From assembly GCA_002170775.2 (NCBI GenBank), contig NHIP02000009.1:89473-127472 (forward strand): DNA of 38,000 nt, in the 5' to 3' direction. Under the pieces are notes generated by a model that saw only the letters and a program-made list of their open reading frames with translations, made no database searches and was not told where the DNA came from. Origin of the DNA: Euryarchaeota archaeon TMED192 (GTDB taxonomy: Archaea > Thermoplasmatota > Poseidoniia > Poseidoniales > Thalassarchaeaceae). Within the stretch, counting starts at the first letter, position 1, and each line of letters starts with the position of its first letter. A program made the translations under genes and the position numbers. Of the stretch, positions 17,930 through 20,775 are shown one piece after another.

Positions 17930-19903
17930 TTGACCATCTTTAGCGTATACATCGAAGAAGGTTGCATAACTTGTGATGCTTGTGAGGAAGCAGCACCTGA
18001 AGTATTCGAGGTCACCGACGATACCTGTTTCATCAAATCCGATGTTAGACTGGATGGAGGTTTCGATAGGAACGATTCCAAATCAGCCTTGAAAAAAGAG
18101 GCGATTCAAACTCTTTCCGATGATATTTTCGATGCGGCAGACGGTTGTCCAGTCGACGTCATCATAGTGGTGGAAGCCCAAGTTGATGAAGAGGAAAAAG
18201 AGGCAGAGGCCCCAGTCATAGAAGTAGAAGCTTCGGTAGACGTCGGGGTCGCTGAGGAACCTCTTGCGGTAGAAGGGTTAGACGCATTCCTCTCAACGGG
18301 AGATAGAACGCTGAATGTCTTCTTCGGCTCGCAGTCAGGTAACTCGGAAGAGTTTGCAGCCAAGTTGGCAAAGAATGCTAGTCAATATGGCATGGAAGGA
18401 GTAGTCCACGATATGGACGGCTTCGACATCAATTCAATGGCTTCTATGAAACGCGTCGCCATAGTTTGTTCCACGTGGGGCGAGGGTGAGATGCCCGACA
18501 ATGCCGAGGCTCTTTGGCAGGCAGCATCTTCAGACAGCGCACCGAAGATGGATGGAATGTCCTTCTCAGTCCTAGCACTGGGCGATACTTCCTACGAACT
18601 GTTCTGCCAGTCCGGTAAAGACTGGGACAAAAGATTGGAAGAGTTGGGTGCGAGTAGAGTAGTGAACCGAGTCGACTGTGATGTCGATTACGAGGCTCCA
18701 GCGGCTCTTTGGGCAGAAGAAGCACTCACAATGCTATCGGCAACTGACGATTCAGGAAATCTTCACGAAGAACTCATCGATGCAATTCGCGATTTAGTGA
18801 GCGGCGGGGTTTCGGGTGCGGAAGGAGAGGACGGATTCTCAATCCCGGACCTCTTAACTGGAGAATTAGAGGCCCAACTCAGTGTCTTCAGGTACGATCC
18901 CCATGAGAGAACAAGCGGAACTGACACGTGGATTTGCTCTCTGAACGGACACACAACCCTTCTAGACGCACTTCGATCAATCCAAAGAACCCATGACGGA
19001 AGTCTATGCTTCACTGACGGCTCCCCACATGATCCTTGTACGGCAATACTGGTCAATGGCCGCGTGACATTGCCGGGATCTACAAGGATAGATCGCCTTT
19101 CCAATGGGAGGCCCGGTCCGGTAATGTTGACCATAGAGCCACTTCCTGGATATGATGTACTGAGAGACTTGTGCGTTGATTTCGACGGATTACTAAAGAA
19201 GCGAGAAACCGCTTCGATCTGGCACGTTTCGAAAACTAGGGCGGCAGTAAAGTCGGAACAAGGGATAGCCATCGGCCCAATGGAGCCCTCTAAAGCAGCT
19301 GAATTGCATTCTATGGCCAATCACGCTGGCCCCCAAGTCATACACTCATGTTCCGACGCTGTGGCTTACGCCGACTCGTATCTCGGCCCCTCGGTGTGCC
19401 TAGATTTGTGGATTAGAAGATGTGATCCACGTACCTCGGATAGGAGGATAAGTGCGATTGATGCCATTCTTGGGGGTGCGGATACGATTTTGGCTGAGAC
19501 GGACATGGCACCATTCGGAAGGCAACCTCTCGCTGGGCGCGGTATTCAAGCAGCCCTATCAAGCGCTAGGACACGAGCTTTGGAGGTCAATGGCTTCAAT
19601 GGACGCCACGGAAAACACGTTTGGTGGTATGCATGGACTTTGAAGAGCAGCGGCAAAGTAAACGACACGGTACTTTACCGCCAAGTACTCGGCCCACTAG
19701 GACTTCTCTCTAACCTCTCATCCGGCGTCACTGCGAGAATGGTCACTGGATTCACAAGAACCGGTGGAAAGATGGTAAACGATATCCTGGCACTGGTTGC
19801 ACCTCCTGCAGGATTAGGAAAGATGCCGAGGCAATTCAATAAGAGAGTCGATAAGCACCACGAGGTAGTATCAATTTTCAATAGTCTTGATCGAAGATTC
19901 TGA
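17930..19903 (+). CDS. Multidomain electron-transfer-like protein: 4Fe-4S ferredoxin + flavodoxin + degenerate SdhB/FrdB-like region
   Basis: N-term 'CITCDACEEAAPEVFEV...DAADGCPVDVI' ferredoxin; 'NVFFGSQSGNSEEFAAKLAK...CSTWGEGEMPDNAEALW...LGDTSYELFCQSGKDWDKRL' flavodoxin; 'TTLLDALRSIQRTHDGSLCFTDGSPHDPCTAILVNGRVTLPGSTRI' and 'SYLGPSVCLDLWIRRCDPRTSDRR' resemble SdhB. Confidence 0.85.
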   Translation: MTIFSVYIEEGCITCDACEEAAPEVFEVTDDTCFIKSDVRLDGGFDRNDSKSALKKEAIQTLSDDIFDAADGCPVDVIIVVEAQVDEEEKEAEAPVIEVEASVDVGVAEEPLAVEGLDAFLSTGDRTLNVFFGSQSGNSEEFAAKLAKNASQYGMEGVVHDMDGFDINSMASMKRVAIVCSTWGEGEMPDNAEALWQAASSDSAPKMDGMSFSVLALGDTSYELFCQSGKDWDKRLEELGASRVVNRVDCDVDYEAPAALWAEEALTMLSATDDSGNLHEELIDAIRDLVSGGVSGAEGEDGFSIPDLLTGELEAQLSVFRYDPHERTSGTDTWICSLNGHTTLLDALRSIQRTHDGSLCFTDGSPHDPCTAILVNGRVTLPGSTRIDRLSNGRPGPVMLTIEPLPGYDVLRDLCVDFDGLLKKRETASIWHVSKTRAAVKSEQGIAIGPMEPSKAAELHSMANHAGPQVIHSCSDAVAYADSYLGPSVCLDLWIRRCDPRTSDRRISAIDAILGGADTILAETDMAPFGRQPLAGRGIQAALSSARTRALEVNGFNGRHGKHVWWYAWTLKSSGKVNDTVLYRQVLGPLGLLSNLSSGVTARMVTGFTRTGGKMVNDILALVAPPAGLGKMPRQFNKRVDKHHEVVSIFNSLDRRF

Positions 19904-19914
19904 GGTCACTGTAT

Positions 19915-20775
19915 ATGCCAATTCGATTTGCATACCACCCGGGAAATGTGGCCCACAGCAGTGCCCCGGAAGTTGATGAGACCATGCGTGCAGCTTGTCG
20001 ATCTCTCGGTATCGGACTCGTTGATTTACCTGGTGCAACCAGCTGCGGGGCAGGGATACTAGGACAGGCAAATCGGCCTCTCCAGGCAACCCTGAATGCC
20101 AGAACAATGTCAATGGCAGAAGACCTCGGCCTGGATATAATCACCCCCTGTGCCACTACTGCTGCAACGCTCTACGAAGATCTGAATATGATGAAATCCG
20201 ATCTGAACATGATGGGCATTGTTAATGCGACCCTAGAGAAGTCAACCGGGAGAACGTTAGAGGGTACTGTTCGAATACGACATCTACTCCAAGTTCTCGT
20301 TGAAGATATTGGATTGGAGACATTCTCAAATAAAGTCAAGAATCCAATCCGCTCCAAATTGGCTCCGTACTATGGGCCAAATCTCCAGCAAGAAGGGCTG
20401 ATAGGCGGAGATGATGTTTTTGATCCATGGTATCTAGAATCAATCATAGAATCTTCTGGAGGCACTGCTGTAAGATATCCCTCTCGAACCTCCTCAGCAG
20501 GTACCCCTGGATTGTTCTCAGAAGAACAGACAGTATTACGCCAATCAGCTACAATACTTTCAGAGGCCAAAGCCGGCGGAGCTAAGATGCTTATCAGCGC
20601 CTGCACCTTGTCCCATGGAGTTCTTGATATCTACCAGGGCAAGGCCTCTAGATCAACGGGATTGAACACGAATTTGCCTGTGGTGCATCTTTCCGAATAC
20701 ATTGCATTTGTCACCGGAAATTTCCCAAAAAGACTTGCGATGCTGAAAACCAGACTCGCTGTAATTGGTGATTGA
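19915..20775 (+). CDS. HdrB / SdhE (CCG-domain)-like protein with most cluster cysteines missing
   Basis: Overall HdrB-like pattern: 'SLGIGLVDLPGATSCGAGILGQ', 'AEDLGLDIITPCATTAATLYE', 'GTVRIRHLLQVLVEDIGL', 'AGGAKMLISACTLSHGVLDIYQ', 'LPVVHLSEYIAFVTG'. Confidence 0.8.
   Translation: MPIRFAYHPGNVAHSSAPEVDETMRAACRSLGIGLVDLPGATSCGAGILGQANRPLQATLNARTMSMAEDLGLDIITPCATTAATLYEDLNMMKSDLNMMGIVNATLEKSTGRTLEGTVRIRHLLQVLVEDIGLETFSNKVKNPIRSKLAPYYGPNLQQEGLIGGDDVFDPWYLESIIESSGGTAVRYPSRTSSAGTPGLFSEEQTVLRQSATILSEAKAGGAKMLISACTLSHGVLDIYQGKASRSTGLNTNLPVVHLSEYIAFVTGNFPKRLAMLKTRLAVIGD

Follow-up and report, generated by a model that had tools for sequence, protein, structure and literature searches.

Complex II is defined by an electron path that leads from a flavin to iron-sulfur clusters. 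Among its E-type forms is SdhABE, the 8-methylmenaquinol:fumarate reductase of Wolinella, which has archaeal relatives; in these enzymes an SdhB with a C-terminal extension is encoded ahead of SdhE, an HdrB-type subunit with a ten-cysteine motif (PMC2680327). HdrB itself, subunit B of the CoB-CoM heterodisulfide reductase (PDB 5odc, 8rvu), has a two-CCG-domain fold with ten ligands of two noncubane clusters, including the bridging cysteines Cys81 and Cys234 (PMC13083937), and TfrB, a subunit of thiol:fumarate reductase, combines SdhB-like and HdrB-like modules. CCG domains with altered ligands occur in an aerobe: mycobacterial EtfD, a membrane protein equipped with an electron wire of its own, still binds two CCG clusters and has enough cysteines for them, and its linear [3Fe-4S] cluster uses four of them (PMC13083937).

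Here, we analyse a gene pair of the archaeal order Poseidoniales, encoded in a window of 38,000 nucleotides (the whole stretch of DNA analysed), in which the architecture of E-type complex II is retained while most of its cluster ligands are gone. We refer to the two proteins as pB (SdhB-like) and pE (SdhE/HdrB-like), and to an SdhA-like protein of the same genomes as pA. No description of this set was found in the open literature searched, and in a published metabolic survey of MGII, complexes I and II appear in canonical form only (PMC6336850). The pair is the mark of an order-wide function, in electron transfer or as a scaffold, that had stayed hidden. A version of complex II that keeps its subunits under strong selection after losing the flavin-to-cluster path would show that, perhaps where oxygen is present and iron is scarce, a respiratory scaffold can be reused, here by a group that ranks among the most abundant planktonic archaea.

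Domain composition and ancestry of pB and pE

Both genes lie on the + strand, and an ORF check placed their frames at exactly 17930..19903 (pB, 657 aa, with a TTG start) and 19915..20775 (pE, 286 aa). pB, which has a homologue in 40/40 comparison loci, is a ferredoxin-flavodoxin-SdhB-like fusion. It begins with a single [4Fe-4S] ferredoxin domain (17954..18166, + strand) that shows the CxxCxxC...CP pattern as CITCDAC...CP and matches Fer4_13 (PF13370) over its cut-off at residues 9-79, followed by an FMN flavodoxin domain (18311..18745, + strand) with a phosphate loop and a match to Flavodoxin_1 (PF00258) over its cut-off (2.7e-33, residues 130-254). These linker-attached N-terminal ferredoxin and/or flavodoxin domains, which a sequence-only reading of the DNA had described as intact, are the only intact redox centres on pB. 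The flavodoxin is nearest to those of CysJ (PDB 1ykg, 2.6e-28) and cytochrome P450 reductase. In such diflavin reductases the flavodoxin serves as a tethered shuttle domain; in pB, however, no NADPH/FAD reductase domain follows it.

The SdhB-like region of pB (18869..19534, + strand) is recognised by Pfam (Fer2_3, residues 317-420, 6.3e-11, over cut-off), by the NCBIfam SdhB/FrdB models (best 2.6e-13, residues 315-502), by alignment to E-type SdhB and by a fold model of modest confidence (pLDDT 62) that matches SdhB/FrdB; behind it lies a C-terminal extension (19535..19900, + strand) homologous to that of E-type SdhB. pE matches the Pfam CCG domain (1e-7), the NCBIfam HdrB model TIGR03288 (4e-34) and SdhE (MFR anchor) model (2e-29) and, in a sequence search and over its full length, the HdrB chains in the PDB (3e-34), with which it shares the two-CCG-domain fold. 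The pE part of a model of a natural pB-pE fusion superposes on HdrB with a target TM-score of 0.86-0.89. The Pfam, NCBIfam and PDB matches agree with the proposed pairing of an SdhB-like with an HdrB/SdhE-like gene. The NCBIfam scores against HdrB, SdhE, SdhB and TfrB are significant yet fall far under the equivalog or subfamily cut-offs, as with pE against the HdrB equivalog (118 bits, cut-off 345) and with the score for the TfrB equivalog (24 bits, cut-off 385).

Which complex II the pair descends from is seen more clearly in profile alignments. The sequence-only reading had likened pB to SdhB or TfrB; the likeness to SdhB stands and can be narrowed to the E-type, since the alignment of pB with E-type SdhB spans 312 columns at 1.7e-32 and takes in the C-terminal extension, versus 223 columns at 1.7e-11 for canonical SdhB. 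For pE the values are 2.8e-63 against E-type SdhE and 2.7e-44 against HdrB. Intact sdhA, sdhB and sdhE adjoin one another in family f6 and in other members of the phylum, with all residues complete. Full-length homology, the SdhB extension and the B-E gene order are E-type features present in pB-pE, and an SdhA-like protein is likewise found in the same Poseidoniales genomes; a derivation of pB and pE from E-type SdhB-SdhE is well supported by these alignments. Unlike E-type SdhABE, pB lacks all SdhB ligands and carries fused ferredoxin or flavodoxin domains, pE lacks most SdhE ligands, and pA lacks catalytic residues and is encoded elsewhere. Judged by its sequences, the pair is thus E-type complex II by descent, but classing it as a functional member would be unwarranted, since it lacks the features that define the family. 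The joint SdhB-like and HdrB-like modules are common to TfrB, but the Fe-S ligands of TfrB are lost in pB-pE, and an N-terminal ferredoxin or flavodoxin is not known as a feature of TfrB.

In one genome a single frame of 997 aa covers both pB and pE (L066:1868-4858), a TfrB-like layout. In the alignment made with this natural fusion, rows with an in-frame stop between pB and pE were read through, the stop being taken as Gly for that purpose alone. An uncharacterised Helicobacter pylori protein, 3kwl, aligns structurally with both the pB and the pE part of the fusion model over 631 columns (E 1.5e-12); it was not found by sequence profile, and its domains are arranged differently (rmsd 16).

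Loss of cluster ligands and conservation of the pair

We defined ligand columns by aligning pB and pE to E-type SdhB and SdhE of the same phylum with full cysteine sets, using 41 loci (the window and 40 Poseidoniales comparison loci) and, for pE, a wider set of 104 distinct sequences. All 12 SdhB cluster ligands of pB are replaced in 41/41 loci, apart from single stray cysteines, extending across these loci what had been read from the window alone, and two of the positions are invariably Ser and Glu in all 41. In the pE of the window, where the sequence-only reading counted about three of ten ligands as remaining, exactly three are kept: Cys44, Cys79 and Cys230. Former ligand positions can be followed along the gene (all + strand). 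Asn11 (19945..19947) replaces a ligand of the proximal cluster and is Cys in 6/104 sequences, while Ser43-Cys44 (20041..20046), once a CC pair, reads Ser/Gly-Asp in most of family f2. The former CxxC at 20149..20160 retains Cys79 and has Thr82 at the position of the HdrB bridging Cys81, and the former CxxCH at 20602..20616 retains Cys230 and His234 and has Ser233 at the position of bridging Cys234 (PMC13083937); across the 104 sequences the first bridging site reads Thr/Ser/Ala/Cys and the second Ser/Ala. Cys79, Cys230, Ser194 and His234 are invariant throughout this set.

Could the cluster cysteines simply have moved? The SdhB-like half of pB has no invariant cysteine among the 41 loci, the best conserved being Cys336 (36/41), outside the ligand columns, and the only invariant cysteines of pE are 79 and 230; on these grounds we rejected shifted ligands, for which the alignment to E-type SdhB/SdhE gives no support. 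Most pE proteins have no more than two cysteines around the proximal site and a single one at the distal site, where four of five ligands are lost in 41/41 loci. A full proximal set of five occurs in only 6/104 distinct sequences, the best case retaining 6/10 ligands. These six come from genera g5, g16 and g17, spread over both families, and look like an intermediate stage in which the distal site was lost and the proximal site kept. The proximal pE cluster may have been lost once or twice: on the pE tree all degenerate proteins form one clade (97/98 without ligand columns) and a family f1 clade is weakly rejected (p-AU 0.036), while the pA tree separates the two families and the topology for pB differs again.

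Clusters might still be bound through unusual ligands (Asp, Asn, Ser, His or Glu), at a modified CCG site like that of the EtfD linear [3Fe-4S] cluster. Several former ligand sites are indeed held to one such residue (Asn11, Ser194, Ser233, Asp44 in family f2, and the Ser and Glu of pB in 41/41 loci), the six five-cysteine genomes could bind one proximal noncubane cluster, and EtfD shows that altered CCG clusters occur in an aerobe (PMC13083937). The linear cluster of EtfD, however, uses four cysteines, more than the two or fewer proximal cysteines and one distal cysteine of most pE; the window's pE has too few for a linear [3Fe-4S] or noncubane cluster of the EtfD type, and pB has no cysteine at its conserved ligand sites. 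We consider bound clusters of this kind quite improbable. A second alternative turns on the invariant residues of pE: Cys79 and Cys230, one in each CCG half and each the first cysteine of a former CxxC, could make up, with His234, a redox-active dithiol/disulfide site that is reduced by electrons from the fused flavodoxin or ferredoxin. All three residues persist in 104 distinct sequences in which most other ligand sites vary. Since both cysteines are also conserved in the cluster-bearing ancestors, though, their conservation may be structural, and in the six five-cysteine genomes the proximal set could bind a cluster instead; thiol chemistry is in our estimate improbable.

Loss of ligands could also reflect local decay, pseudogenes or sequencing error, for which the loss itself is the one argument. 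The pair is far too well conserved for this. pE is present in 57/60 relatives, with all three misses in one genus of fragmented assemblies (one of which has a pB fragment cut off by the end of its contig), and a wider draw of the order showed it in nearly all genomes. As far as each stretch reaches, 40/40 loci share the gene order thermosome-pB-pE-helicase (opposite strand)-L3/L4, and dN/dS is 0.02-0.06 for pB and 0.01-0.05 for pE. Because the pair is order-wide and syntenic, with 104 distinct pE sequences and dN/dS of 0.01-0.06, we rejected decay and error, whose probability is negligible. The surmise that the scaffold is conserved rather than decaying holds across Poseidoniales, where the gene pair is kept in 40/40 loci and the pattern of cysteine loss recurs in 104 distinct pE sequences. 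Outside the order, neither the sampled sister group nor the rest of the phylum yielded the pair, family f3 of the same class yielded weak partial matches to other proteins, and the phage records searched contained no pE relative. Given their ancestry, ligand loss and purifying selection, pB and pE are with high probability ancestral E-type complex II subunits kept as a folded platform after their ligands were lost.

A dispersed SdhA-like protein and exchangeable carrier domains

The source genome also holds a separate, intact canonical SDH, which answers whether a bona fide SdhB exists elsewhere in it; we accordingly rejected pB-pE as a substitute for normal SDH. The SdhA-like protein pA is encoded outside the window (L143; G000:C1:23606-25006), is conserved across the order with strong matches (E < 1e-40) in 57/60 relatives, and did not adjoin pB-pE in any locus read. 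Among 47 aligned pA sequences six of seven succinate/fumarate catalytic sites are lost: the equivalents of the covalent-FAD His, Thr254, Glu255, Arg286, His354 and Arg399 are gone in 47/47, save for a lone Thr at the Thr254 site in one, and His242 survives in part of family f1. Positions of the FAD fold are kept (Gly10, Ala19, Gly307-Gly308, Ala331-Ala332 and Asn349), and pA possibly binds FAD. Its dN/dS is 0.035-0.077. pA forms one clade (100/100) that the tree does not put inside E-type SdhA, although such a placement is not rejected (p-AU 0.079).

After removal of the rates of thermosome and L4, evolutionary rates of pA covary with those of pB (partial r 0.80) and pE (0.34). Directly upstream of pA lies a gene for a membrane protein of ~480-530 aa with three hydrophobic segments (L143:2958-4400, L191:4521-6062, L190:4508-6088); the two members scanned matched no Pfam family over its cut-off. 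This protein covaries at 0.91 with pA and 0.86 with pB, and because its tie to pA is stronger than that of pB, we take the pA-pB value as only a weak hint. Together with co-occurrence and the shared type of ancestry, this covariation makes pA a probable flavoprotein partner of pB-pE.

The carrier module varies between loci, as judged from stop-to-stop frames with putative start codons. It is ferredoxin-flavodoxin in 27 of the 41 loci, flavodoxin-flavodoxin in 9, a lone flavodoxin in 3, a lone ferredoxin in 1 and cut by a contig end in 1. A larger set comprises 41 flavodoxin-flavodoxin, 38 ferredoxin-flavodoxin, 12 flavodoxin, 7 ferredoxin-ferredoxin-flavodoxin (perhaps one ferredoxin matched twice), 1 ferredoxin and 5 cut modules. 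The sequence-only reading's ferredoxin is thus present in the window but is not a fixed part of pB; in many lineages it gives way to a second flavodoxin or is missing. Ferredoxin presence changes about 10 times on the pB tree, and the window and a near relative (L054) differ in carrier module while their pE proteins are 97% identical. Exchange of ferredoxin for flavodoxin is a familiar iron-saving device. Every pB of the 41-locus set has at least one ferredoxin or flavodoxin domain; that the two are exchanged for each other, not simply lost, suggests that electron carriage matters.

This pattern bears directly on a non-redox reading, in which pB-pE, with or without pA, would serve as a factor for assembly, regulation or docking, for example of canonical SDH or another respiratory complex, with ferredoxin or flavodoxin delivered to the platform and not through it. 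In its favour, fold and sequence persist although the ligands and catalytic residues have disappeared, and the genome has a separate, intact SDH. A retained redox carrier on every pB of that set, exchanged rather than lost, is harder to reconcile with it, and we regard a purely non-redox scaffold as rather unlikely.

A proposed platform with tethered carriers

We propose instead that the tethered ferredoxin and flavodoxin domains, possibly with FAD on pA, stand in for the Fe-S chain on the retained E-type scaffold. The carriers would exchange electrons with the ferredoxin/flavodoxin pool of the cell on one side and, on the other, with a flavin or partner that docks on pB-pE, in a reaction that is probably not the ancestral succinate/fumarate or heterodisulfide chemistry. 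We infer from the sequences that pA, pB and pE may join in one complex, that pA may hold FAD and that the carriers may replace the Fe-S chain. The mechanism as a whole, with platform, tethered carriers and flavoprotein partner, is tentative, and we put it somewhat short of an even chance. Its fullest form, a Poseidoniales three-subunit complex II-like machine that has abandoned the Fe-S chain and in which exchangeable tethered ferredoxin/flavodoxin domains carry electrons between the ferredoxin/flavodoxin pool and a repurposed flavin site on pA, strikes us as unlikely, though worth stating. NuoF had no match in the source genome or in 9/10 other order genomes checked, so feeding the respiratory chain from the ferredoxin/flavodoxin pool would be an attractive role for the unit.

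The sole NuoF-type match of ten order genomes (L301; G014:C20:103143-103625) belongs to genus g5, in which the proximal set of five pE cysteines persists as well. A search of the source genome for DUF5644, run without a positive control, gave no match. At contig C14, a second FAD_binding_2 protein was set aside, being the L-aspartate oxidase NadB, and a third Fer2_3 match belongs to a short [2Fe-2S] protein encoded next to a molybdenum-hydroxylase-like ORF. The sole other CCG proteins found in the source genome are larger and HdrD-like; the same 786-aa HdrD-like protein occurs twice with identical scores (G000:C7:29820-30446 and G000:C14:160944-161570), perhaps through duplicated contig sequence. 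In one genome a further SdhA paralogue of ~600 aa lies outside the canonical SDH (L290; G013:C24:36551-38173).
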